Of a stretch of 64,000 nt of DNA, positions 43,858-56,975 are shown one piece after another. The DNA is from Streptomyces sp. NBC_00271 (lineage in GTDB: Bacteria > Actinomycetota > Actinomycetes > Streptomycetales > Streptomycetaceae): positions 7,192,001 through 7,256,000 of the forward strand of contig NZ_CP108070.1 of the NCBI RefSeq assembly GCF_036178845.1, written 5' to 3'. Below the pieces are notes generated by a model. It was not told where the DNA came from and ran no database searches. It worked only from the letters and a program-made list of their open reading frames with translations. The position numbers were made by a program, and so were the translations under genes. Numbering within the stretch: position 1 is the stretch's first letter; each line of letters begins with the position of its first letter.

Positions 43858-44345
43858 GCGAATTCCCCAATGTGAATGCCGCGGCCTGTCAATTTCACAC
43901 CGGCAGGCCCGAATTGACGTGTGCAGCGTACTCGTTGCCTTGGGATTTCGGAACGTTTGTATGAGAGTTTTGTGAGTCGCCGATTTCCCGGTGAAGAGAA
44001 TGCGCGCGAATATCGAGTGTGCCGTTTCCGTGGAAAGCCGAAGGGGAAATTCGGTTCAAATTTCAGCGGACCTGGAGGCCACCTACGTGTACCGCCCCTC
44101 TTCGTGGTGGGCCGGGAGGGCGGGTGTCCCGGGGCGCCCCCCCCGCCGGCGCGTCGGGAAATTCGCCCACTCTTGAGGCGACCTGATGGTCGACCGCATG
44201 AACGAGGGGCAACCTTCGCGTGAAATGTGTTTCACGCGTGGATCAAGTTTCTCTTTGGTCTCACTAATCTGCGTGTGCCGCATGACCGACGAATCCGCGT
44301 CGACTCATGCGGCTTCCTGATATGGGGATACAGGAGTGGGGATGG
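43858..44345. other. non-coding divergent region, AT-richer than average
   Basis: About 490 bp with promoters for the secreted protein and the DUF1508 gene. Visible elements are a run of C at 44136-44143 and the 22-bp palindrome at 44217-44238. Short open frames show no family features. Confidence 0.6.
44217..44238. promoter_or_regulatory. 22-bp inverted repeat, operator-like
   Basis: CGCGTGAAA, four bases, TTTCACGCG: a perfect dyad about 110 bp before the DUF1508 gene. Its size and AT-containing arms resemble a repressor site more than a terminator. The cognate regulator is unknown. Confidence 0.7.
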
Positions 44346-44732
44346 ATGGCGGCAAGAATGGGGGGCGCGGCCGTACCGGGCACGCGCTGTCAAATAGATA
44401 TAGGTGCAGACGGCACTTACTCGTGGCGACTCACTGCCACGAACGGGCGGGTGATCGCCGTCGCCGCGAGGACGTACCGGAACTACGGCGAGTGCCGTGC
44501 GGCGTTCGAGCGCTTGTGCACCGACATCGGGAAATTACCCGGCGCGGTGCATCACACCGCGGAAGGCAGTGGATGGGTCTGGCGGCTGCGTGACGGCACC
44601 GGCGGCGTCGTGGCCGTGTCCTCGCGTGCCTACGAGCGGCACTCGACGTGCCAGGCCGCCTATGAACGCTTCCGGGCTCTCCTGGCCGAGCTCGGGTCGG
44701 GTGGGGCGATTCCGTGGGACGACGCCGAGTGA
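44346..44732 (+). CDS. DUF1508 (YegP-like) repeat protein with a TTA codon
   Basis: A 128-aa protein made of two YegP/DUF1508-type units: TYSWRLTATNGRVIAVAARTYRNY followed later by WVWRLRDGTGGVVAVSSRAYER. ATG 44346 is chosen because AGGAG (44332-44336) lies nine bases upstream. A TTA codon at 44535-44537 implies bldA-dependent translation, hence expression linked to development. The stop lies inside the first of three 18-bp tandem units (44715-44768). The function of the family is unknown. Confidence 0.82.
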   Translation: MAARMGGAAVPGTRCQIDIGADGTYSWRLTATNGRVIAVAARTYRNYGECRAAFERLCTDIGKLPGAVHHTAEGSGWVWRLRDGTGGVVAVSSRAYERHSTCQAAYERFRALLAELGSGGAIPWDDAE

Positions 44733-44768
44733 GGGAACGACGCCGAGCGAGGGGACGACCCCGAGAGA
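44715..44768. repeat. three tandem 18-bp repeats spanning a stop codon
   Basis: Units at 44715, 44733 and 44751 share GGGAmCGACGCCGAGyGA-like sequence. The TGA stop of the DUF1508 gene ends unit 1; the same frame reads on through units 2 and 3 as NDAER and DDPER. Confidence 0.8.
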
Positions 44769-44796
44769 GCGGACGGGGCTGACGGATCGATCGTGC

Positions 44797-44845
44797 GCGT
44801 GAGGGGCTGGGGTGCGCCACAAGAGCGCATCCCAGTCCCTCACGC
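44797..44845 (+). terminator. 21-bp hairpin terminator before the Pst-like island
   Basis: Arms 44797-44817 and 44825-44845 pair fully with two G-U pairs, loop seven bases. It separates the DUF1508 gene from the transporter island, which therefore needs its own promoter in 44846-44953. Two CGTTCACGT words lie 40 bp apart there (44861, 44901). Confidence 0.85.
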
Positions 44846-44953
44846 GTTCTCCTGTCGCCGCGTTCACGTCAACATCGGAAGTTGCCCCTCGGGGGCGTCT
44901 CGTTCACGTTCGTGTGCGCGTGCGTCCATCACGCGTCAGGAGTGTCGTCCCAT

Positions 44954-45970
44954 GTGACGACGCGAATCTTTGAGCGATCTGTGGCTCCGGGGGACGACCC
45001 TCCGAGACGCCTGCACCCCGATCGGGGGCTGCCCGACCGCGTGTTCAGGGGCATCCTGCGCGGCGGCGGCGGGCTGGTCCTCGCGATCATGCTGCTGGTC
45101 GGCGGCTTCCTGACGTACCGGGCCTGGCAGGCGCTGTCGGTCGCGAAGTGGGACTTCGTCACCACCGAGGCGTGGGAGCCCGAAGGCGGGCACTTCGGCA
45201 TCGCGGCCGTGCTCGTCGGGACGGTGCTGATCGCCATGGTCGCCATCGTGTTCGCCGTACCGCTGGCGCTCGGCACCGCGCTCTACATCTCCGAGTACGC
45301 GCCGCCGCGGATCCGCCAGACCCTCATCAGCGTCGTGGACCTGATGGCGGCCGTGCCGTCGGTCGTCTACGGCCTGTGGGGCCTGTTCTTCTTCCAGGGG
45401 CACGTGGTCAGCGTGTCCCGCTGGATCTCGACCTACTTCGGTTGGATCCCCCTCTTCAAGGTCGACGGCGTCGATCCGAAGGACCCGCTCGCCACCGCGA
45501 CGGTCTACACCTCCTCCACCTTCATCGCGGGCATGGTCGTGTCCTTGATGGTCGCGCCGATCATCTGCTCGGTGGTGCGGGAGGTCTTCTCGCAGGCTCC
45601 GGTCGGCGAGCGGGAGGGCGCGTACGCGCTCGGCGCCAACCGCTGGGGCATGATCCGCAGCGTCGTCCTGCCCTTCGGCAGGGGCGGCATGATCGGCGGC
45701 ACCATGCTGGGCCTGGGCCGGGCGCTCGGCGAGACCATCGCCGTGTACCTGATCATCTCGCCGGTGTTCGTGATCCAGCCGCACATCCTGCAGAACGGCA
45801 CCAGCTCGGTCTCGTCCCTGATCGCCCTGCGCTACGGCGAGGCGAGCCCCATGGGCATGTCGGCGCTGATGGCCGCGGGCCTCGCGCTCTTCCTGATGAC
45901 CCTCGTGGTCAACTTCGCCGCTTCGTCGATCGTCGCCCGCAGCCGTTCCGGCGCGACGAGCGACTCCTGA
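44954..45970 (+). CDS. PstC-like ABC transporter permease
   Basis: A 338-aa membrane protein of the PstC family with about six hydrophobic segments. Landmarks: ALYISEYAPPRIRQ, DLMAAVPSVVYGLWG and the coupling motif EREGAYALGANRWGMIRSVVLPFGRGG, then GRALGETIAV. GTG 44954 is 11 bases after AGGAG. It opens a run of nine co-oriented genes. PstC normally imports phosphate, but the three unusual binding-protein-like genes that follow make the substrate uncertain. Confidence 0.9.
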   Translation: MTTRIFERSVAPGDDPPRRLHPDRGLPDRVFRGILRGGGGLVLAIMLLVGGFLTYRAWQALSVAKWDFVTTEAWEPEGGHFGIAAVLVGTVLIAMVAIVFAVPLALGTALYISEYAPPRIRQTLISVVDLMAAVPSVVYGLWGLFFFQGHVVSVSRWISTYFGWIPLFKVDGVDPKDPLATATVYTSSTFIAGMVVSLMVAPIICSVVREVFSQAPVGEREGAYALGANRWGMIRSVVLPFGRGGMIGGTMLGLGRALGETIAVYLIISPVFVIQPHILQNGTSSVSSLIALRYGEASPMGMSALMAAGLALFLMTLVVNFAASSIVARSRSGATSDS

Positions 45971-45984
45971 GGAGACCGAGCCCG

Positions 45985-47301
45985 ATGACCGTCACCGCTC
46001 CGCAGAGCCCACCCGGCGACCAGGGGCAGGGGGCCGATCCGAGCCCCGCGGGTGCGCCGAAAACGCCGCCCCCGGCCCCACTCACCCACCTGCCCGCACG
46101 CCGGCCCGGCGCGAGTTCAACGCGCGGAGACTCGCGCCGCAACCTCTCCACGCTGCGCGCCAGCGACGTGTACGCCATGGTCGGCGCCGGCGCCGCGTCC
46201 CTCGCCCTCACCTGGCTGATCTTCGACCGGCTGCTGCCCTTCAACGGCGCCCTGGGCTTCGTCGTCATCGCCTACGCGCTCTTCATCGGCCTGTACGCGC
46301 TGCTGGTCTCCTGCGACGAGGACGGTCCCGCGGTCCGTGACCGGGTGGCCGCCGCGATCGTCCAGAGCCTCGGCCTGGTGATGCTGACCGTGCTGGCCTT
46401 CGTGGTCGTCTACACCCTCTACGAGGGGCGTGAGGCGCTGCCGCACCTGAACTTCTACACCGAGTCGATGGCCGACGCGGGTCCGCTGGAGCCCCTCAGC
46501 GTCGGCGGCATCGTGCACGCCATCGTCGGCACGCTGTGGCAGATCTCCATCGCCCTGGTGATCTGCATACCGACCGGGCTGGTGTGCGCGGTCTTCCTCA
46601 ACGAGGTCCCGGGCGCCTTCAGCCGGTTCGTCCGCACCATCGTCGAGGCGATGACAGCGTTGCCATCCATCGTGGCCGGCCTGTTCATCTACGCGACCTT
46701 CATCCTGAGCCTCGGTTTCGGTCAGTCCGGCCTCGCCGCCGGGCTCGCGATCTCCGTGATGATGCTGCCGATCATCATCCGCGCGGCGGACGTGGTGATC
46801 CGACTGGTCCCCGGCACGCTGCGCGAGGCGTCCTACGCGCTCGGCACCTCACGGTGGCGCACGGTCTGGCACGTGGTGCTCCCCACCTCGCGGTCCGGGC
46901 TGACCACGGCGGTCATCCTGGGCACCGCGCGCGGTGTGGGCGAGACCTCGCCGGTCCTGCTGACCGCCGGTTTCACCCAGGAGCTCAACACCAACCCGCT
47001 CCACGACCCGATGGTGTCGCTGCCGCTGGCGGCCTTCAAGCTCGTCGAGTCCCCCGAGCCCACCTACATCGCCCGCGGCTTCGGCACCGCGGCGGTGCTC
47101 CTGGTGCTGGTGCTCGTCCTGTTCGTCGCGGCCCGCGTCGTCGGCGGCCGTGGGCCGGGCAAGCTGACCCGCCGCCAGGAACACCGCCGGGTCAGGGCGT
47201 CGCGCCGTGACGCGCAGCGCTTCGACGTGTACGCAACCGCCGGCCGGCCGTCGGCCGGCCCCGCCTCGACCAGTCCCGCATCGACGAGGAGCACCCCGTG
47301 A
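45985..47301 (+). CDS. PstA-like ABC transporter permease with extended N-terminus
   Basis: A 438-aa permease. A Pro-rich cytoplasmic tail (about 1-55) and two extra hydrophobic segments precede a PstA core: LNEVPGAFSRFVRTIVEAMTALPSIVAG, MLPIIIRAADVVIRLVP, coupling motif REASYALGTSRWRTVWHVVLP and ARGVGETSPVLLTAG. The long basic C-terminal tail (RRQEHRRVRASRRD) is unusual. ATG 45985 is preceded by GAGGAGA. The end overlaps the next gene (GTGA). Confidence 0.9.
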   Translation: MTVTAPQSPPGDQGQGADPSPAGAPKTPPPAPLTHLPARRPGASSTRGDSRRNLSTLRASDVYAMVGAGAASLALTWLIFDRLLPFNGALGFVVIAYALFIGLYALLVSCDEDGPAVRDRVAAAIVQSLGLVMLTVLAFVVVYTLYEGREALPHLNFYTESMADAGPLEPLSVGGIVHAIVGTLWQISIALVICIPTGLVCAVFLNEVPGAFSRFVRTIVEAMTALPSIVAGLFIYATFILSLGFGQSGLAAGLAISVMMLPIIIRAADVVIRLVPGTLREASYALGTSRWRTVWHVVLPTSRSGLTTAVILGTARGVGETSPVLLTAGFTQELNTNPLHDPMVSLPLAAFKLVESPEPTYIARGFGTAAVLLVLVLVLFVAARVVGGRGPGKLTRRQEHRRVRASRRDAQRFDVYATAGRPSAGPASTSPASTRSTP

Positions 47302-49031
47302 TATCCGCACCCGTCCGTCGTCCGCGCAGCGTGCGCGTGTACCAGGCACTGGCGCTGGTCGTCGCACTGGTCTGCGCGCTCATGGCCGTACATCCGCCAG
47401 GTGCCTTCGCGGTCACCTACGTGAAGATCAGTGGCTCCGGCTCGACATGGAGCGCCAACGCCATCGAGCAGTGGCGCCGCAACGTACGCCAGCAGGGCAT
47501 GACCGTGAACTACGCGTCGGTGGGCTCGTCGGTCGGACGTACCCAGTTCGCGAACGGCACGTCCGACTTCGGGGTGTCCGAGATCCCCTACGGCCTCAAG
47601 GAGTTCGGTACGACCGACACTCCGCCGCAGCGCAAGTACGCCTACATGCCGATCGTGGCCGGCGGTACGTCGTTCATGTACAACCTGAAGATCGGCGGCA
47701 ACCGGGTCACCAACCTGCGGCTGTCCGGGGAGGTCCTCAGCAAGATCTTCACCGGCAAGCTCACGATGTGGAACGCGCCGGAGATCAGGGCGGACAACCC
47801 CAAGCTGGCCCTGCCCGCCCGCCGTATCGTCCCGGTCATCCGCTCCGACGGCTCCGGCACCACCGCGCAGTTCACCCTGTGGATGTCCAAGCAGTACGGC
47901 ACCCTGTGGAACGACTACTGCCGTCGGGCGGGCAAGCCCACGCCCTGCGGCCTGACGTCGTACTTCCCGAACATCCCCGGCTCGGGCTTCGTCGCCCAGT
48001 CCGGCTCGCTCGGCGTCGCGGGCTACACCAAGCAGCCCCAGGCCGAGGGCGCCATCACCTACGTCGAGTACTCCTACGCCAGGAACGCGGGCTTCCCGGT
48101 CGTCAAGGTCCTCAACAAGTCCGGGTACTACGTCGAGCCGACCGCCTCCAGTGTGGCCGTCGCCCTGACCCAGGCGCAGATCAACAACGACTCGCGGTCC
48201 GCGAACTACCTCACCCAGAACCTGGACGGGGTCTACACGTACGGCGACCGGCGCACCTACCCGCTGTCCAGCTACAGCTACATGATCGTCCCGACCAAGG
48301 AGGAGATGGGGTTCACCAAGGCCAAGGGCGCCACGCTGAGCGCGTTCGACAACTACTTCCTCTGCGAGGGCCAGCAACTGGCCGACCGGCTCGGCTACTC
48401 GCCGCTGCCGATCAACCTCGTGCAGGCGGCCATGGAGCAGGTGCGCAAGATCCCCGGTGCCGTGTCGGACAACATCAACATCAAGAACTGCAACAACCCG
48501 ACGTTCTCCAGTGACGGGAAGAACCTCCTGGCGCAGAACGCCCCGTATCCCGCGGCGTGCGACAAGAAGGGTTCGGACCAGTGCGCCACCGGCACCGGCG
48601 GCGCCCATCAGTCCACCTCGCCGAGCGGCTCCGGTACGTCCGGCGGCGGCACCGGCTCGGGCGGTTCGGGTACGACCGGCGGTTCGGGCACGTCCGGCGG
48701 TTCCGGTTCGACGGGCGGTTCGGGTGCGACGGGAACGGCCGGTGCCACCACCGGCGGCAGCGGTACGGCGGGCAGCACCGGCGGTACGGGTGGGGCGACG
48801 GCAGGTAGCGTCGTCGCCCCCGACACCGGCCAGGTGCTCAGCGGCGGCGGGGGCACCGGCGACACCTCGGTCGCCGCCAGCCCGGTCTCCCTCGGCACCG
48901 GCGACGCCCTCGGTCTGCGCACCGCGCTGATGGCACTGTCGGCCGTGCTCCTGATCGGCGTGGTCGTCGGGCCACCCCTGATCGGACGCATGATGTCGAA
49001 CCGCGCCCGCCGCAAGGGGGGCGTGGCATGA
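47298..49031 (+). CDS. PstS-like binding protein with Gly/Ser/Thr linker and C-terminal membrane anchor
   Basis: A 577-aa exoprotein: a signal peptide ending near AFA, then a PstS-like domain (SGSGSTWSANAIEQW, the ligand loop SDGSGTTAQFTLWM, LGVAGYTKQP). From about residue 430 a linker of some 90 residues consists of GGSGT-type repeats. The chain ends with a hydrophobic helix (LRTALMALSAVLLIGVVV) and a basic tail, so it stays in the membrane instead of being a lipoprotein. The linker could let the binding domain reach out from the membrane. It overlaps both neighbours by four bases. Confidence 0.88.
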   Translation: MISAPVRRPRSVRVYQALALVVALVCALMAVHPPGAFAVTYVKISGSGSTWSANAIEQWRRNVRQQGMTVNYASVGSSVGRTQFANGTSDFGVSEIPYGLKEFGTTDTPPQRKYAYMPIVAGGTSFMYNLKIGGNRVTNLRLSGEVLSKIFTGKLTMWNAPEIRADNPKLALPARRIVPVIRSDGSGTTAQFTLWMSKQYGTLWNDYCRRAGKPTPCGLTSYFPNIPGSGFVAQSGSLGVAGYTKQPQAEGAITYVEYSYARNAGFPVVKVLNKSGYYVEPTASSVAVALTQAQINNDSRSANYLTQNLDGVYTYGDRRTYPLSSYSYMIVPTKEEMGFTKAKGATLSAFDNYFLCEGQQLADRLGYSPLPINLVQAAMEQVRKIPGAVSDNINIKNCNNPTFSSDGKNLLAQNAPYPAACDKKGSDQCATGTGGAHQSTSPSGSGTSGGGTGSGGSGTTGGSGTSGGSGSTGGSGATGTAGATTGGSGTAGSTGGTGGATAGSVVAPDTGQVLSGGGGTGDTSVAASPVSLGTGDALGLRTALMALSAVLLIGVVVGPPLIGRMMSNRARRKGGVA

Positions 49032-51472
49032 CCGCCATGACTCCCATGCCCCGGTCCCGGCGGCGCGTCGTCGCCGCCGTGAGCGCGCTGCTGGCCGCGC
49101 TGGTCCTGGCCCTGCTCCCGCTGCCTTCCGCCACCACGTCCGCCGCGGCGGCGGACGGCACGGCGGAGGACTCCGCGGTCACGGTGACGGGGAAGCAGGG
49201 CAAGTACGACGACTTCTCCAAGCTGAAGGTGACCGTCCACCAGACGAAGAACCTGCGGTCGCAGGGGGTGCGGGTCACCTGGCAGGGCGGGGCGCCGACG
49301 ATCGACGGGCAGAACGCCGCCGTCAACTTCCTGCAGATCATGCAGTGTTGGGGCGATGATCCGGCCGGACCCGACCGTGATCAGTGCGTCTTCGGCGGCG
49401 ACGGCTCGATCCTCGGGGCCGGAAACGGCCGACTGGTCGGCACCGATCCGGGGGAGACCCAGTACCCCGGTGGCTTCGTCCCGTTCCGCCCGGTCGGTGA
49501 CCTGCCCCCCACCAAGTCCTCCCACGACTTCACCTACTTCGGTCCGCTGGACACCAACGAGCAGCGGTTCGCCAGAACCTATGCCGACGGCACGGGCGAG
49601 GTGACCTTCGAGGCGCAGGACGGCATCCAGGCGTCCCACCTGGGCTGCGGCATGAACACGGCGCCTGCCGGGAGTGACGCCGTTCCGCGGCACTGCTGGC
49701 TGGTCGTCGTCCCGCGCGGCACGCACGACGCGGACGGCACCGAGATCACCCAACCGAACCAGGCGGGCAACTCACTGCAGAGCTCGCCGCTGTCCGCGAC
49801 GAACTGGGCTCAGCGGATGGTCGTCCGTCTGGACTTCCAGCCGGTCGACGCGTTCTGTCCGGAGGGCCAGCCGGAGCTGCCCACGGTCGGCTCCGAACTG
49901 ATGACGGACGCCGTCACTTCCTGGCAGCCGAAGCTGTGCTCGTCCACGGGGAGCACGTTCGCCTTCACTCAGGGCGGCGAGGAGGAGGCCAGGGGCCAGG
50001 TCCTGGGCACGTCGGCCGACACGCCCCTGCTGGGCTTCACCGTCGACCCGGTCGCCCGGCCGGACGACGGATCCAAGGTCGTGCACGCACCGGTGGCGGT
50101 GTCCGGACTGGCGATCGCCTTCTTCATAGAAGGTCCGTCCGGCGTGGTCCAGGGAATGAAACTGAATCCGCGGCTCGTCGCGAAGATGCTCACTCATTCC
50201 TATGTGGAAGACGTGACGCTGGGCGCCACTCCTGATTATTTGAATGGGAACAGCCCTTCCCTGGTCCAGGATCCGGAATTCAAGGAATTGAATCCAGGTT
50301 TTCCGCAGTTGACCAATCACCAGCTGAGGAGCCTCATGGTTCCGCTGCAGTCTTCCGACACCACGCGGATCGTCTGGAACTGGCTCCAGTCGGACGCGGA
50401 CGCCCGTGGCTTCCTCTCCGGGACGAAGGACCGGTGGGGGATGCGGGTGAACCGCTATTTCCAGGACCTGAAGCTGGCGCAGAACACCACGCTGACCGAC
50501 TACCCCAAGGTGGACCCGACGACCACGCCGGCCCTCGGCAACGGGACACCCCCTCTCAGCTACGCGATCACCGACCTGGACCCGTACACGGCCGACCTGC
50601 ACGACGGGGCCGTGCGAACCCGCCGGGGCAACAACACCCGCACCATCCAGTGGCAGTCGGGGGACACCGCCCAGTCGCCGGCCAAGCTCATCAACGACGC
50701 GCCTATGTCGGGTCAGCGTGCCGTGATGGCGATCGTCGACGCCGCGTCTGCGGAGCGTTACGGGTTGACGACCGCGGCGCTGCGCAACGCGGACGGCAAC
50801 TTCGTGAAGCCCTCGGCCGCCACGCTCACGGCCGACGTCGCGACCATGCGGCCGTCGTCCGAAGACGCTTCGGTGCTCAAGCCGGACCCGGCGCGCGCCA
50901 AGGGGCAGGCGTATCCGCTGACGGCCGTCGCCTACGCCGCGGCCTCGGTGAACCAGGACGCGAAGGCCCGCAAGGCGTACGCCCGGTTCATCAGGTACGT
51001 CGCGGGATCGGGCCAGACGCTCGGCGTGTCGGCGGGCCAACTGCCCTTCGGCTACGCGCCCTTGCCGGCCCAGCAACGTCTGCAGGCGCGGACCGCCGCC
51101 GACGCCCTGGAGCGCGGCGAGACCGTGACCGGCCCTTCGTCCGACGGGTCGAACCAGGGTGACACGGGAGGGCTCGGATCCGGAGCCGGCACCGGAGGAA
51201 CCTCCTCCGGCGGTGGCACCGGCGGAGCGTCCGCGGGCGGGACGGGCGGCGGCGCCACCCCCTCGGCCTCGGACTCCGCCGCCGCGGTGAACGGCTCCGC
51301 GTCACCCTCCTCCGGGCCGCAGCAGAATGTCGCGGAAGCCAAGGCGGGATTCACTCCAGGAGAGATCCTGGGAATTATCCGATGGATTCTTCTCGTCGTC
51401 CTGTTCGTGGGCGGGGCGGCAGGACTTTCGGGTCCGATAATGCTGCATTTCGCGCAGCGTCGGACTCCCTAG
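49028..51472 (+). CDS. large membrane-anchored exoprotein, distantly PstS-like
   Basis: An 814-aa protein with a signal peptide (cleavage near AAAADG), a long extracellular region and a C-terminal hydrophobic anchor (about 781-803) followed by HFAQRRTP. The part VHAPVAVSGLAIAFFIEG and the following MKLNPRLVAKMLTHSY resemble the hinge region of phosphate-binding-like proteins; the first 250 residues match nothing I know. A Gly/Ser/Thr-rich linker (about 690-760) precedes the anchor. Codon use drops in GC at about 50,200-50,320. The ATG overlaps the previous stop. Confidence 0.8.
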   Translation: MTAMTPMPRSRRRVVAAVSALLAALVLALLPLPSATTSAAAADGTAEDSAVTVTGKQGKYDDFSKLKVTVHQTKNLRSQGVRVTWQGGAPTIDGQNAAVNFLQIMQCWGDDPAGPDRDQCVFGGDGSILGAGNGRLVGTDPGETQYPGGFVPFRPVGDLPPTKSSHDFTYFGPLDTNEQRFARTYADGTGEVTFEAQDGIQASHLGCGMNTAPAGSDAVPRHCWLVVVPRGTHDADGTEITQPNQAGNSLQSSPLSATNWAQRMVVRLDFQPVDAFCPEGQPELPTVGSELMTDAVTSWQPKLCSSTGSTFAFTQGGEEEARGQVLGTSADTPLLGFTVDPVARPDDGSKVVHAPVAVSGLAIAFFIEGPSGVVQGMKLNPRLVAKMLTHSYVEDVTLGATPDYLNGNSPSLVQDPEFKELNPGFPQLTNHQLRSLMVPLQSSDTTRIVWNWLQSDADARGFLSGTKDRWGMRVNRYFQDLKLAQNTTLTDYPKVDPTTTPALGNGTPPLSYAITDLDPYTADLHDGAVRTRRGNNTRTIQWQSGDTAQSPAKLINDAPMSGQRAVMAIVDAASAERYGLTTAALRNADGNFVKPSAATLTADVATMRPSSEDASVLKPDPARAKGQAYPLTAVAYAAASVNQDAKARKAYARFIRYVAGSGQTLGVSAGQLPFGYAPLPAQQRLQARTAADALERGETVTGPSSDGSNQGDTGGLGSGAGTGGTSSGGGTGGASAGGTGGGATPSASDSAAAVNGSASPSSGPQQNVAEAKAGFTPGEILGIIRWILLVVLFVGGAAGLSGPIMLHFAQRRTP

Positions 51473-51642
51473 GAGGCACCTAGGAGGCCTGCCCGTAACC
51501 TTTCTCTCACGGGGAATTGGTTGGTCACCGCGCGGAAATCCTGGAATTGTTTGCGGTGGCCGACCGACGGGCCGGCAGGAAAAAGATCCGGATTTTGCTT
51601 GAACGGCCAGCCTTCGAAATCCAGAAAACAAGGGGTTCAGAA

Positions 51643-52632
51643 GTGAACGTCAAGTCTCGCGCCAAGGTCGGCGCTGCTTTCGGTGTCGCGGCTCTCGGTC
51701 TCGGCATCCTGGCCTCTCCCGCTTCGGCGGACCCGAGCCCGGTCACCGACTACCGTCAGCTGGCGGGTGTCGGTTCGGACACCACGCAGTACGTCATGAA
51801 CGGCATCGGCGACGCCGTCACGAATGCCAACGGCAAGATCGTCGCGTCGTGGAACGCCACCGGCACCGCCACCGTGAAGACCAAGGCGACCGGCTGTGAC
51901 ACCGTCGCCCGCCCGGACGGCTCCTCGGCCGGTATCAACGCGCTGAACGCCGACATCACCGCCGGCACCCACTGCATCGACTTCGCCCGCTCCTCGCGTG
52001 GCCCGGTGGACACCACCACCACGGACCTCACGTGGATCCCGTACGCCAAGGACGGTGTGACCTACGCCACCGACCTGGGCAGCACGCTGCCGACGAACCT
52101 GACGAAGGCACAGTTGGCCGCGATCTACCAGTGCAACTCCACCGAGTTCCCGAACGCGCAGCCGCTGCTGCCGCAGTCCGGCTCCGGTACCCGGACCTTC
52201 TGGCTGTCGGCCATCGGGATCACCGAGGCGCAGGTCGGCTCCTGCGTCGACGGCACCATCCAGGAGCACAACGGCGCGGCGATCCTCAACGGCAACCAGC
52301 TCATGCCGTACTCGATCGCCCAGTGGATCGCCCAGGGCAAGGGCCTCTCCGACGTCCCGAACCGTCGCGGTGAGTCGCGTCTGCGCAGCATCAACGGCCT
52401 GGCCCCCACCACGGGCACGGGCTCCGCGATCGCGCTCAACACGGCCTTCGACGCCGGCTTCCTCCGCGACGTCTACAACGTCGTCCCGACCGCCAACGTC
52501 TCGGACTCGGTCGTCGCCGGGACCTTCGTCGGTTCGGGCTCGAAGGTCTGCGCCGCCGGCTCCACGATCGCGACCTACGGCTTCGGCGCCGTGTCCAACT
52601 GCGGTGCCACCACGCTCACGGGCGAGCGGTAA
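51643..52632 (+). CDS. secreted PstS-like binding protein without anchor
   Basis: A 329-aa protein: a signal peptide ending ASA before DPSPVTD, then a domain with GVGSDTTQYVMNGIGDAV, IDFARSSRGP and SGSGTRTFWLSAIGI, the last being the ligand-loop type of PBP-like proteins. Unlike its neighbours it has no linker, lipobox or membrane segment, so it should be released. GTG 51643 follows AAGGGG. A 170-bp AT-richer gap upstream (51473-51642) probably has its own promoter, so expression may exceed that of the transporter. The four Cys in the second half may form disulfides. Confidence 0.83.
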   Translation: MNVKSRAKVGAAFGVAALGLGILASPASADPSPVTDYRQLAGVGSDTTQYVMNGIGDAVTNANGKIVASWNATGTATVKTKATGCDTVARPDGSSAGINALNADITAGTHCIDFARSSRGPVDTTTTDLTWIPYAKDGVTYATDLGSTLPTNLTKAQLAAIYQCNSTEFPNAQPLLPQSGSGTRTFWLSAIGITEAQVGSCVDGTIQEHNGAAILNGNQLMPYSIAQWIAQGKGLSDVPNRRGESRLRSINGLAPTTGTGSAIALNTAFDAGFLRDVYNVVPTANVSDSVVAGTFVGSGSKVCAAGSTIATYGFGAVSNCGATTLTGER

Positions 52633-52662
52633 TCCGTGATCGTCGTCTGATCCTCGCGTGAC

Positions 52663-52689
52663 GGCCGGGCACCCTCCAGGTGCCCGGCC
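52663..52689 (+). terminator. hairpin terminator after the secreted binding protein gene
   Basis: An 11-bp stem (52663-52673 with 52679-52689) with a five-base loop, extended by outer GCGTG/CACGC pairs, 30 bp after the stop codon. Confidence 0.82.
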
Positions 52690-52745
52690 CCACGCGCTGT
52701 CATCCGTCCACGTAATCCGTCAACCGTCCCCCGGGGGGCATCGCC

Positions 52746-54203
52746 GTGACAGTGCCACAACCATTCCGAAGAGCGGCCGCGATCGTGGCCGCCTGTGCCT
52801 TACTCGCCATGGGCCTCGTGGTCCTGGCCATGTCCCAGTCCCAGCCTGCCCGGGCGGCGTCCGTCGGCGAGTTCACCATGACGCCCACCGGCGGCAAGCT
52901 GAGTGACCCGCAGCCCATCGCCGGCTCGATCGGTATCCCCGGCGCATGTCCCGCCGCCACCATCGAAGACCTCAACTGGAACAGCGTCCTCGCCCTGTAC
53001 GTCGTCAAGGCCGACGGCACCGAGGTGAAGGCGCTCAACGGGATCACCAGCAAGGCCCCCTACACCGCGGCGACCTCGGCGGTCTCGCTGGTCGCGGCGG
53101 ACAACGCGGGGATGGTGGTCAGCAGCCTGTCGGACGCCATCACGGGCGACGGCACGTACGAGTTGCGCCTGCGGTGCGTGGACAACTACGACTGGGCCGT
53201 TCCGCCCGACTCGATCGTCCCGGGCGACCCGTACTGGACCCAGAAGATCACCGTCACCGGCGACAACTGGGTGGTAGGGGAAGGCGCGGAGGCCACCCAG
53301 GTCGCGCTGACCGCCTCCCCCGCCGTGGTCGCGCCCAGCGAGGAGACCACGCTCACCGCGACGGTGTCGCCCGCGGCGGCGGCCGGCACCGTCACCTTCC
53401 TGGAAGGCGCGACGACGCTGGGCCAGGCCACGGTCGCGAGTGGCAAGGCCGAGTTCAAGACGTCGACGCTGGCCGAGGGGGACCACGGCGTCACGGCCCG
53501 CTTCACTCCGGGGAACGCCGCCGAGTGGGGAGCCTCGGAATCCGCGCCCTTCGAGGTGACCGTGCAGCTGCCGAGGTACGAGATGCGCGACGCCGCGGGG
53601 AAGCTGCTGGCCTACAACCCCGAGTTGCAGCGCGGCCAGACCGTGAAGGTCCTCATCCGCGGATGCCGGCCGAGCGCGTCGTACTCGATGACCATGTTCC
53701 ACAACGACGCCACCTTCCCCGCCGCCACGGCCGACGCGAGCGGGACGGTCACCTGGTCCACTCTGACCGTGCCGGACGACGCCGTGGCGGGGGCGAGCAA
53801 CTGGGACTACAGCCCGGACTGCACCGGCGGCAAGAACCCCGTGCGCGCGGTGGACTTCACCGTCCCCGAGCCGTCCTCCGAGTCCCCGTCGGCGAGCCCG
53901 ACCGACTCCCCGACGGACAACCCCTCCGACGAGCCCACCGACGGCTCCAGCAGTGAACCGACCGACGGCTCTTCGGGCGACTCGTCCGGCACCACGTCCG
54001 GCACCACCACGACCGGTGGCAGCGGCACCGGCGGCGACTCCACCTCCGGCGGGACCTCGCCCACCGGGGGCCTCGCCTCCACCGGCAGTCAGATCGCGCT
54101 GTTCTCCGGCCTCGGAGCCGTCATCCTCGTCACGGCCGGCGTCCTCGCCGTGCGGTACGGCCGCCGCGAGGGGCTGCTGAAGTTCGGCGACCCCCGCTCG
54201 TAG
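52746..54203 (+). CDS. surface protein with Ig-like domain and LASTG sorting signal
   Basis: A 485-aa exoprotein. After the signal peptide (to about residue 38) come an N-terminal domain of some 145 residues, a bacterial Ig-like repeat (about 185-275: VTFLEGATTLGQATV, GVTARFTPGN) and another beta domain. A Ser/Thr/Gly/Pro-rich stalk leads to LASTG at about 443-447, followed by a hydrophobic helix and a basic tail (RYGRREG). LAxTG is the known recognition motif of class E sortases in Streptomyces, for example in long chaplins, so wall attachment is predicted. GTG 52746 is the start. Confidence 0.87.
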   Translation: MTVPQPFRRAAAIVAACALLAMGLVVLAMSQSQPARAASVGEFTMTPTGGKLSDPQPIAGSIGIPGACPAATIEDLNWNSVLALYVVKADGTEVKALNGITSKAPYTAATSAVSLVAADNAGMVVSSLSDAITGDGTYELRLRCVDNYDWAVPPDSIVPGDPYWTQKITVTGDNWVVGEGAEATQVALTASPAVVAPSEETTLTATVSPAAAAGTVTFLEGATTLGQATVASGKAEFKTSTLAEGDHGVTARFTPGNAAEWGASESAPFEVTVQLPRYEMRDAAGKLLAYNPELQRGQTVKVLIRGCRPSASYSMTMFHNDATFPAATADASGTVTWSTLTVPDDAVAGASNWDYSPDCTGGKNPVRAVDFTVPEPSSESPSASPTDSPTDNPSDEPTDGSSSEPTDGSSGDSSGTTSGTTTTGGSGTGGDSTSGGTSPTGGLASTGSQIALFSGLGAVILVTAGVLAVRYGRREGLLKFGDPRS

Positions 54204-54290
54204 CGGCTCGGGAGCACGGGCGGCGGGCCCCCACCCCGCCGCCCGCGTCTTCGTATCTCCACCACACACCTCTCCACAGGAGCGCTCCCC

Positions 54291-55232
54291 GTGACCGTGT
54301 TGTCCCCGCCCCCGCCGGCCGACGCGCCGCCGGTGCCGGCGCCCGCACCCGAGCCCAGGTCCGCCGCGGGGCCGCCGCGGGCCGAGCGCCCCGGCTTCGC
54401 GTTCGCCGGGGCCGCGCTGTGCGTGCTCGCCGCGCTGCTGCTCGGCTTCGCCGCCAACCTCACCATCGTCGGCCACCTCCAGCACGCGCGTGACCAGCAG
54501 ACCGCGTACGACGAGTTCCGCCGTCAACTCGCCCTCGGAACGGCACCGGTGGGCCAGCGGGGTTACGACGGCAAGATGCTGGAGCCCGGCGCGCCCGTCG
54601 CCCTGCTGCGCATCCCGGCGCTGGGCCTGAAGGAGGTCGTGGGGGAGGGCACCACCTCCGGGGTGCTGATGTCCGGCCCCGGCCACCGCCGGGACACCCC
54701 GCTGCCGGGACAGGCCGGCACCAGCGTGCTCATGGGCCGTCAGTGGGGGTACGGCAGCCCGTTCAACGACCTGCACCAACTGCCCCTCGGCACCGAGATC
54801 CGGCTGACGACCGGTCAGGGCACCGCCACCTACAAGGTCTCCTCCATCCGCCGCAAGGGCGACCCACTGCCGCCCACGCTCAAGGAGGGCCAGGGCCGGC
54901 TCACGCTCATCACCGCCGACGGCGCGCCCTACACCCCCTCCGGCACCCTCCGCGTGGACGCGACCCTGGCGAGTGCCGTACAGCCCGCGCCGCCCCGCCC
55001 GCTGACGCTCGGCTGGATCGACGAGTCGGAGCAGGCCCTGGGCACGGAGAACGCCGCCTGGCTCTCGGTCTTCCTCTGGTCGCAGGGGCTGCTCGGCGCG
55101 GCCCTGCTCACCATGGCCGCGTACCGCGTGTGGGGCCGCTGGCAGACCTGGATCGTCTGCGTGCCCGTGCTGACCGCCCTCGGCCTCGCCGTCTCCGGCG
55201 CCGCCACCCGCCTGCTGCCCAACCTGCTCTGA
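54291..55232 (+). CDS. sortase-like protein lacking catalytic His and Cys
   Basis: A 313-aa membrane protein: a Pro-rich N-terminus, a hydrophobic segment at about 40-60, a sortase-like beta domain (about 100-225), and two C-terminal hydrophobic segments. The fold landmarks are present (VALLRIPALGL, GSPFNDLHQLPLG, YKVSSIR). The catalytic His position in the usual GH motif is Arg150 (LMGRQWG), and the Cys of the TLTTC strand is Ala209 (LITADG). An Arg at 221 (TLRVDA) is kept. It cannot be a normal transpeptidase and may be a scaffold or substrate presenter. GTG 54291 follows AGGAG. Confidence 0.78.
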   Translation: MTVLSPPPPADAPPVPAPAPEPRSAAGPPRAERPGFAFAGAALCVLAALLLGFAANLTIVGHLQHARDQQTAYDEFRRQLALGTAPVGQRGYDGKMLEPGAPVALLRIPALGLKEVVGEGTTSGVLMSGPGHRRDTPLPGQAGTSVLMGRQWGYGSPFNDLHQLPLGTEIRLTTGQGTATYKVSSIRRKGDPLPPTLKEGQGRLTLITADGAPYTPSGTLRVDATLASAVQPAPPRPLTLGWIDESEQALGTENAAWLSVFLWSQGLLGAALLTMAAYRVWGRWQTWIVCVPVLTALGLAVSGAATRLLPNLL

Positions 55233-55253
55233 CCGACGAGGAGTTCCACCATC

Positions 55254-56141
55254 ATGTCCGACACGAACCCGACACTCGTCGACGAGATCCTCGACCCGAC
55301 GGTGAAGATGCGGAGCACCAAGGCGAGCAGGCCCGCCGTCTCCGGCGCCGGTCCCGGCGAGAGCAATCCGGCGACCCTGGAGGCCGACTCCATCTCGGCC
55401 TGGTTCGCCGACCACAAGGTCCTGGAGCACGTGTCGCTCACCATGCCCGCCCGCAAGGTCACCGCGCTCATCGGCCCGTCCGGCTGCGGCAAGTCCACGT
55501 TCCTGCGGATCCTCAACCGCATGCACGAACTGATCGGCTCCGCCTCCCTCGCGGGCCGGGTGCTGCTGGACGGCGAGGACATCTACGACCGTGGCCGCCG
55601 CATCACCCACGCCCGCCGCCAGATCGGCATGGTCTTCCAGAAGCCGAACCCCTTCCCGGCGATGTCCATCTACGACAACGTCACCGCAGGACTGAAGCTC
55701 GGCGGCATCAAGGCCGGCCGTGAGAACAAGGACTGGCTCGTCGAGGAGTGCCTGACGAAGGCGGGCCTGTGGAAAGAGGTCCGGGACCGGCTCCGGCAGC
55801 CCGGCGGCGCGCTCTCCGGCGGCCAGCAGCAGCGTCTGTGCATCGCGCGTTCGCTGGCCGTACGACCGCGGGTCCTGCTCATGGACGAGCCGTGCTCGGC
55901 GCTGGACCCGACCTCGACACGGCGCATCGAGGAGACGATCCACGAGCTGTCCGAAGAGGTCACCATCGTGATCGTCACCCACAACATGCAGCAGGCCGCC
56001 CGGGTCTCCGACCAGTGCGCGTTCTTCCTCGCCGAGCAGGGCACCCCCGGCGCCATCGTCGAACACGGCACCACGGACGCCATGTTCAACAACCCGCAGG
56101 ACCCGCGTACGACGGACTACGTGAACGGACGCTTCGGATAG
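55254..56141 (+). CDS. PstB-like ABC transporter ATP-binding protein
   Basis: A 295-aa ATPase of the PstB family: Walker [10 protein letters not shown] near residue 75, Q-loop [15 protein letters not shown], signature LSGGQQQRL, Walker [14 protein letters not shown] and H-loop VTHNM. The 35-residue N-terminal extension is longer than in classical PstB. It energises the permease pair encoded about 8 kb upstream; finding it between two sortase-like genes ties transporter and surface proteins into one unit. It starts 21 bp after the sortase-like gene. Confidence 0.92.
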
Positions 56142-56171
56142 GACGACCGACCACACCGACGGAGGCCTCGG

Positions 56172-56975
56172 ATGCCAGGCACCCTCCGAGCGACGAGCGA
56201 GGGACGACCCCGCCGCGCGGTGGCCCGTACCGCGGCCGTCCTGGCCGCTGTCGCCCTCGCCGGCTGCGCCGTCCCCGGAGCGCCCGAGAAGGCGTTGGCG
56301 GGCCCACCCGCGTCCGTCCCGCTCACCGAGCGGACGGCCCCGGACCCGGCCGACCCCACCCCGCTCGGGACATCGGCCCGCCCCCGCACGCCCGAACCCA
56401 CTCCCACTCCACCGCCCCGCGACCCCGCTCCGGCGTCCTCGCCGTCCCCCAGCGCGCCCACCGTGTCGCCGACGACGAAGCTCCCGGACCTGGGCACGCC
56501 ACCCCGGTCCACCTCGCCGCGCCCCGGCACCACGCCCGCGAAGCCGCCACCGAAGCCGCCGGCCGGTGCCGATGCCGGTGCCGAGACGTTCGGTCGGCGT
56601 GGCCCGGACGGTTCGACCACCCTGCGCATCGGCTCCTGGTCGGCCCGGGTGGTACGCGGTGGGCAGGAGGCGGTGGACGCGTGCCGCGACGCCGTGCAGT
56701 GGACGGGGCCCGACCTGGGGACGGAGGACGGCTACGCGCTGCGTACCGCCGTCGTCGTCGGCCACGACTACTGCGGCTTCGAACGTTTCGCCAAGCTGCC
56801 CGTGGGCACCGTCGTCACGGCCACGACGCCACGCGGCACGTTCGAGTACCGCGTGTACGCCCACTACGTCAGCCCCGGCCGCGGCACCCCGTCCCAGGGC
56901 CTGTACTGGGGCGACCTCACGCTCCAGTCCTGCGTCGGCCCGGACACGGGCTTCAGCTACCTCATGCGTGTGTGA
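56172..56975 (+). CDS. lipoprotein with C-terminal sortase-like domain (His-Cys-Arg present)
   Basis: A 267-aa protein. The signal sequence ends in the lipobox LAGC (Cys32). A Pro/Thr/Ser-rich stalk of about 110 residues follows, then a domain of about 120 residues. This domain carries VVVGHDYCG (His198), FERFAKLPVGTVVTATTPRG, FEYRVYAHY, LTLQSC (Cys254) and a terminal Arg266, the order and spacing of a sortase His-Cys-Arg triad. Sortases are normally anchored by an N-terminal membrane helix; a lipid anchor is unusual. It is the only candidate in this island for a sortase able to act on the LASTG protein. Confidence 0.7.
   Translation: MPGTLRATSEGRPRRAVARTAAVLAAVALAGCAVPGAPEKALAGPPASVPLTERTAPDPADPTPLGTSARPRTPEPTPTPPPRDPAPASSPSPSAPTVSPTTKLPDLGTPPRSTSPRPGTTPAKPPPKPPAGADAGAETFGRRGPDGSTTLRIGSWSARVVRGGQEAVDACRDAVQWTGPDLGTEDGYALRTAVVVGHDYCGFERFAKLPVGTVVTATTPRGTFEYRVYAHYVSPGRGTPSQGLYWGDLTLQSCVGPDTGFSYLMRV

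Follow-up and report, generated by a model that had tools for sequence, protein, structure and literature searches.

We describe a ten-gene locus of Streptomyces sp. NBC_00271 that joins the permeases, the ATPase and a binding protein of a Pst-type phosphate transporter to two further PstS-type proteins, a wall protein and two sortase-like proteins, one of which, SrtX, has lost the catalytic residues of a sortase. The locus occupies positions 44307–56975 of the DNA analysed, a stretch of 64,000 nucleotides that we call the window (contig NZ_CP108070.1 of assembly GCF_036178845.1, positions 7,192,001 to 7,256,000), and all ten genes lie on the same (+) strand. With a probability of roughly 0.6, we read the system as a second, specialised importer of the Pst type that takes up phosphate or a closely similar oxyanion and is probably under Pho control; surface proteins would form a relay similar to that of the Isd heme systems, and SrtX would provide a docking site. 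The sequences of the components give good support to the import of a phosphate-like oxyanion; the docking role of SrtX is one that we infer.

Organization of the locus

The features of the locus are as follows.

44307..44732, +, DUF1508 protein of 141 aa, the tenth gene, 5' of pstC (PF07411, 36.9 bits against a cut-off of 22)
44862..44930, +, PHO-box-like region (GTTCAC at 44862 and 44902, GTTGCC at 44881, GTCCAT at 44924)
44954..45970, +, PstC-type permease (TIGR02138, 253 against a cut-off of 196)
45985..47301, +, PstA-type permease (TIGR00974, 215 against a cut-off of 193)
47298..49031, +, S1, PstS-type binding protein with a C-terminal hydrophobic stretch (TIGR00975, 208.5 against 205)
49028..51472, +, S2, membrane-anchored protein with a novel N-terminal domain, a PstS-like domain and a C-terminal hydrophobic stretch
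51643..52632, +, S3, secreted PstS-family binding protein without a C-terminal anchor (profile matches 1twy and 4gd5)
52746..54203, +, immunoglobulin (Ig)-like wall protein with a LASTG class-E-type sorting signal (Big_3_5, 56.2 against 35.5; signal read in the sequence)
54291..55232, +, SrtX, membrane pseudosortase with the catalytic His replaced by R150, the Cys by A, and the catalytic Arg lost (PF04203, 56.6 against 26.6)
55254..56141, +, PstB-type ATPase (TIGR00972, 342.4 against 343.2, that is, 0.8 bit below the cut-off)
56172..56975, +, SrtL, lipoprotein (LAGC lipobox) with a compact sortase-like domain (PF04203, 19.3 against a cut-off of 26.6)

The nine genes from PstC to SrtL had been listed in a first-pass annotation of this DNA, and all are open and co-oriented at these positions; the set was incomplete, as DUF1508 is a conserved tenth gene before pstC. 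That annotation also reported several overlaps of 4 bp. Two exist, PstA/S1 and S1/S2, and the remaining intra-operon gaps measure 14–170 nt. S3 probably starts at 51643 rather than at 51517.

The transporter core and S1

By sequence, both permeases belong to the importer type of Pst, and their Pst residues are almost invariant: R256 and E260 of PstC are present in all 102 relatives, and PstA keeps R316 in 100 and E320 in all 102. The Walker A, signature, Walker B and H-loop motifs of PstB are invariant (89 of 89 relatives). S1 is a PstS protein with a Ser/Gly linker and hydrophobic residues at 537–567; its anchor is a C-terminal helix, whereas the PstS of the classical PstSCAB system is anchored by a lipid. 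Judged from site columns numbered after E. coli PstS, the phosphate pocket of S1 is almost complete: among 101 relatives, S38 is found in 96, R135 in 93, D137 in 92, G140 in 101, and T or S at position 141 in 96. Intact PstCAB motifs together with an S1 of this kind speak for uptake of phosphate, or of a closely related compound, at the expense of ATP.

The source genome (12.28 Mb) contains a classical pst operon elsewhere, with PstS-, PstC- and PstB-type matches at C1:5746007-5749981. More generally, at least two pstC genes above the cut-off are found in 32 of 34 genomes, the exceptions being G137 and the fragmented G140. The count covers the 28 genomes with S2 described below, G137 and five genomes outside the class, and leaves out G015, G050 and G060. 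The presence of another pstC in 32 of these 34 genomes argues for a specialised second system, and the idea that the locus usually replaces classical Pst was rejected on the same count. In a tree of 50 chosen PstC sequences of the system and 19 of 20 fetched classical ones, the two groups separate without error, at a support of just 0.72.

In the 1.5-Mb genome G137 (contig C9, locus L133), the only pstC above the cut-off adjoins a divergent SrtX, so the system may be the sole Pst transporter there.

SrtX, a pseudosortase

We aligned 103 SrtX sequences, namely that of the window, those of 65 of the 79 loci anchored on S2 (see below) and those of 37 of the 40 pieces retrieved from 197 genomes. 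At the position of the catalytic His, 96 sequences have R, 4 have K and 3 a gap. At the Cys column we find A (80), S (14), G (5), T (2), V (1) and a gap (1), and the catalytic-Arg column is mainly V (58), I (13), T (12), A (10) or L (4). The same Arg column reads R in six of seven rows of real sortases, with a gap in one; these rows are four of the nine matches in the window's own genome (L005–L013; two of them one gene) and L137–L139, six distinct genes in all. Five further SrtX copies from outside the class are also devoid of His and Cys, and neither residue occurs in any of 108 SrtX sequences where readable. Unlike these, the nine sortase matches outside such loci keep Cys in all nine cases and His in eight, and we conclude that SrtX is a dedicated pseudosortase. 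The "catalytically degenerate" sortase of the first-pass annotation is thus a property of every SrtX examined, and degeneration as a pseudogene of a single strain was rejected for that reason.

Other positions of SrtX are conserved instead: R134 in 90, R187 in 97 and D223 in 94 of the 103 sequences. The retention of R187 and D223, which are not conserved in the real sortases compared, suggests that SrtX is a pseudoenzyme family under selection for a non-enzymatic role.

The best NCBIfam match of SrtX is to class E sortases, at 67.5 bits and below the cut-off of 160, and there is a weak match to the solved structure 5cuw (E 0.0008). Among the 120 matches listed of 1379, relatives are annotated as sortase, class E sortase, sortase A or LPXTG-site transpeptidase, and those 97–98% identical to the window's SrtX are named Streptomyces mirabilis.

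Three loci, L146, L133 and L145, are divergent or rearranged. The SrtX of L146 has lost His and Cys and retains a class-E-like segment with an Arg after the Cys site; it is possibly an intermediate in the loss of catalysis. Three off-locus pieces (L147, L149 and L152) carry weak matches to ATP-binding cassette (ABC) ATPases (33–41 bits) on the opposite strand.

Conservation and distribution

A search anchored on S2, in which the best 80 of 177 stretches encoding an S2 relative were used, yielded 79 loci. The order PstC-PstA-S1-S2-S3-SrtX-PstB is found in 62 of them, SrtX in 65 and DUF1508 in 57; other orders are often S2-SrtX-S3, with PstB first or last. The 14 loci without SrtX have 0–5.5 kb of sequence left after S2 (at most 3.2 kb in 12, 5.1 kb in L059 and 5.5 kb in L062), and SrtX starts 1.4–7.6 kb after S2 in the other 65. 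Since their ends fall inside this range, these 14 loci are probably cut off, with real absence possible in L059 and L062. The 79 loci include Streptomyces, Actinoplanes, Amycolatopsis, Actinokineospora, Nocardioides, Cellulomonas and Curtobacterium, as well as metagenome-assembled genomes (MAGs) of Rhodoluna and Microcella. Locus L059, with S2, S3 and an Ig gene, lies on a contig titled as a Bifidobacterium breve MAG and is perhaps misbinned.

An independent view comes from 197 genomes of the class sampled without regard to S2. SrtX matches occur in 32 of these; two (G022 and G052) are real sortases, leaving 30, and S2 occurs in 28. Both proteins are present in 26 genomes, SrtX only in 4, S2 only in 2 and neither in 165 (Fisher p = 5e-26, kinship ignored), and the genomes with one of the two are mostly incomplete assemblies. 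Among the 40 SrtX pieces fetched, 3 are real sortases, 35 of the other 37 carry core genes, and L105 and L135 lie at contig ends. In a set of 296 genomes of the phylum, five that do not belong to the class carry the system with other gene orders; six further matches outside the class are real sortases without it.

Gene order and co-occurrence are thus found again in many genera, also outside the class, and a chance neighbourhood of sortase and Pst genes was rejected. These data lend strong support to the earlier proposal of a dedicated, conserved apparatus of Pst and sortase/surface genes: in the comparison across actinobacterial genomes, the two sets of genes are neighbours elsewhere too.

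Promoter region

PHO boxes consist of two 11-nt direct repeats with the core GTTCACC. The region before pstC in the window contains GTTCACG twice, and its four elements GTTCAC, GTTGCC, GTTCAC and GTCCAT are spaced by 19, 21 and 22 nt, unlike a plain 11-nt pair. The PHO box of S. coelicolor is given as GTTCACC in the available part of PMC4415409. Within a 260-nt interval at the pstC start, GTTCAC or GTTAAC is present in 47 of 78 cases (77 loci and the window; L057 is counted, its sole match lying inside pstC), against a mean of 6.1 and a maximum of 14 in shuffled sequences. Control intervals gave 6 of 78 inside pstA and 16 of 158 at locus ends.

The position of the PHO-like site depends on where the operon begins. 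In the 23 loci with DUF1508 at most 60 nt from pstC, GTTCAC, GTTCAT or GTTAAC precedes DUF1508 in 17 and pstC in 2; in the 42 with a larger gap, the counts are 11 and 33, respectively. The operon is probably switched on by phosphate starvation, as judged from these motifs. A PHO core between S2 and S3 is not convincing (9 of 56, shuffle mean 2.9, maximum 11), and scans of the locus for sigma-70 promoters and terminators were uninformative.

The additional binding proteins S2 and S3

No Pfam family matches S2 or S3, and the NCBIfam PstS models match them only weakly; profile comparisons group both with PstS-type proteins. Residues 288–695 of S2 align to S1 (hhalign probability 97.3), and in profile searches this C-terminal part hits PstS chains of known structure (best 7xg7, E 6.7e-9). 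The GSGT loop is absent from the alignment of S2 to S1. The N-terminal ~280 residues of S2 (window 49028-49870) form an extracellular domain for which no matching family was found; its cysteines are invariant, and a QxMQCWGD motif is nearly so. S2 relatives are nearly always annotated as "hypothetical protein" (among 120 listed of 1297 matches). S3 matches 1twy (E 1.9e-11) and 4gd5 (E 5.8e-11) by profile, and its only hydrophobic stretch is N-terminal.

Wall proteins and SrtL

The wall proteins vary by lineage, and their sequences fall into three types. One is the Ig/LAxTG protein seen in the window. Another combines Ig-WxL, WxLIP and LPxTG/LAxTG proteins (in L056, PF13731 scores 27.5 against 25 and PF06030 29.2 against 27.3). 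In the remaining type, a long S3 is directly followed by SrtX: L074 and L095 carry a Big_3_5 fusion and no separate Ig gene between S3 and SrtX, and L064 has no Pfam match. The fusion of S3 to Ig domains in L074 and L095 ties S3 to the wall proteins. At L056:13403-16061 and L058:15242-17212, actinobacterial WxL and WxLIP genes stand inside a phosphate-type operon, which links the WxL system to an ABC importer.

SrtL was earlier listed as a sortase-like lipoprotein. Unlike SrtX, it has His, Cys and Arg in sortase order in 8 of 9 rows (in L050 the Cys part is missing in the frame used) and looks catalytically equipped. It has 149 database relatives; among the 120 listed, the named ones are all from Streptomyces.

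Proposed mechanism

We propose that S2, S3 and the wall proteins would capture the ligand at a distance, with the wall proteins holding or presenting S3 within the wall. S3 and S2 would hand the ligand to S1, which would deliver it to PstCA, with PstB supplying the power; the steps after S1 are those of a standard Pst system. SrtX most likely docks a partner, since it is the only extracytoplasmic part of the conserved core that is not a binding protein. As a fixed docking subunit, it might use its former sortase groove to grip S2, S3 or a tail peptide at the mouth of the permease. After inspection of the C-terminal tail of S3, we mention it as a mere idea for such a ligand. In Streptomyces, the LASTG protein would be anchored by SrtL or by a housekeeping SrtE. 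The arrangement would be analogous to the heme relay of Isd systems, except that phosphate takes the place of heme and the sortase fold is non-enzymatic.

In a more specific and rather unlikely version, the sortase fold would itself be an importer subunit, in which arginines of the formerly catalytic groove (R133, R134, R150 at the His site, and R187) relay phosphate, or a phosphorylated or acidic S3 tail, to the permease. The net charge of the SrtX domain (median +1, against −1 to +6 in real sortases) is not unusual, so this idea rests on placed arginines and not on bulk charge. If true, it would give the sortase fold a new role and ABC importers a new accessory subunit, in an old second phosphate system across Actinomycetota.

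Several observations weigh against the importer and relay that we favour. D56 is E in 85 of 101 S1 relatives, so the ligand of S1 may be other than plain phosphate; F11 is W in 99. Without the phosphate loop, S2 may bind no ligand. The alignment of S3 to S1 is weak (hhalign probability 21.7), and the equivalents of R135 and D137 are seemingly missing from S3 in an alignment judged by eye. The class E Tyr position of SrtX is R in 80 of 103 sequences, which speaks against a reading of LAxTG by SrtX. An exact PHO core is missing in 31 of 78 cases, DUF1508 was undetected in 22 of 79 S2-anchored loci, and PstB is missing within ~4 kb after SrtX, the stretch searched, in L101, L103, L104 and L105. 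Finally, SrtX is present in only 2 of 16 listed genomes of the window's genus, its own included, and the system must therefore be dispensable.

Alternative explanations

The changes in S1 raise the possibility that the imported substrate is a phosphorylated organic compound or polymer fragment, such as a piece of teichoic acid or a sugar phosphate; S1 would then recognise the phosphate, and S2 and S3 the organic moiety. The presence of three distinct PstS-type proteins, the large new domain of S2 and wall-binding WxL/WxLIP partners would fit this reading, and a further importer of plain phosphate needs a reason where a second pstC exists. We regard it as possible yet doubtful: the phosphate pocket of S1 is nearly whole, the permease residues are those of Pst, and the recurring families include no phosphatase or sugar gene (other neighbours were not systematically annotated). 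Capture of a phosphorylated polymer, one of two functions suggested in the first-pass annotation, drew no positive evidence. The other, ATP-driven export or assembly of a wall component, is unsupported and in our judgement very improbable. The operon does hold wall proteins and sortase-type genes, with WxL/WxLIP in some loci, but its permeases are of the importer type with Pst residues, PstB and PstS-type receptors accompany them, S1 keeps its phosphate site, and SrtX is without the residues for anchoring chemistry.

PstSCAB reports phosphate together with PhoU/PhoR, and SrtX with S1–S3 could likewise form a signalling complex that reports extracellular phosphate to a regulator. Coexistence with another pstC and the PHO-box-like promoter would agree with a sensor; the ten window genes include no regulator, kinase or PhoU, and three binding proteins plus wall proteins seem excessive for sensing, which makes this account improbable. 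We think it similarly improbable that SrtX is a non-cleaving receptor for LAxTG/LPxTG signals, holding a wall protein near the transporter until it is anchored by an active sortase. SrtX does retain the sortase fold, and LAxTG/LPxTG genes lie directly 5' of it in many loci, but elsewhere SrtX comes straight after S3 with no such gene between. According to the available part of PMC5148588, a Tyr of SrtE1 has been proposed to read LAxTG and an Arg of SrtE1 contacts the sorting signal; in SrtX, the Tyr is mostly R, as given above, and the signal-contacting Arg is gone.

Relation to known systems

The closest relative of the importer proposed here is PstSCAB (TIGR02138/00974/00972/00975), with which it has in common PstC, PstA, PstB and an S1 of the PstS type, their motifs being intact, together with a PHO-box-like promoter. 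It differs in its separate PstC clade in the tree above, two extra PstS-type proteins, DUF1508, the wall proteins, the pseudosortase and the D56-to-E change. For the wall proteins, the nearest comparison is with the Isd heme loci with sortase B (S. aureus, B. anthracis and L. monocytogenes) and cht of C. perfringens, which, as described in the available part of PMC5026354, combine wall proteins, a sortase and an ABC importer and are induced by starvation. Isd systems use NEAT domains and an active sortase; here we find PstS-type receptors and SrtX without catalytic residues (SrtL of the Streptomyces loci keeps them), and no NEAT domain matched nine window proteins at E 0.1. The znu cluster of C. 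diphtheriae also places ligand-binding surface proteins (the zinc-binding wall protein ZnuF, and ZnuG) and an extra membrane protein (ZnuE) beside an ABC importer. It is a zinc system, and the accessible portion of PMC12445094 mentions no sortase gene in the cluster. The present system belongs to neither the Isd nor the znu type. SrtX is related by its class E match to SrtE1 of S. coelicolor (PDB 5cuw), but His251, Cys320 and Arg329 of that enzyme, as numbered in the available part of PMC5148588, are replaced, and the equivalent of Tyr229 is the position mostly held by R.

A literature search, with thin coverage of subscription journals, found no published description of the system, including in the accessible parts of PMC7866108, PMC5882110 and PMC2605767; those of PMC13251363 do not mention a phosphate transporter. 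The earlier statement that no description of such a system is known has to be qualified, since the Isd-type loci, from what is available of PMC5026354, show a comparable pairing.

To our knowledge, no conserved pseudosortase with a transport role has been recognised before. If our reading is correct, annotation as "sortase" or "hypothetical protein" conceals a second phosphate-type scavenging system in many actinobacteria, and Isd-like surface capture would extend from metals and heme to phosphate. Phosphate starvation influences antibiotic production in soil bacteria, and the system would bear on how these organisms handle such starvation.

A possible further pairing in the source genome

Elsewhere in the genome of the window (G000:C1:4857955-4861368; L006 and L004), a strong sortase match on one strand has a partial PBP_like_2 match (E 1.6e-6) ~2.6 kb away on the other, perhaps another pairing of a binding protein with a sortase.

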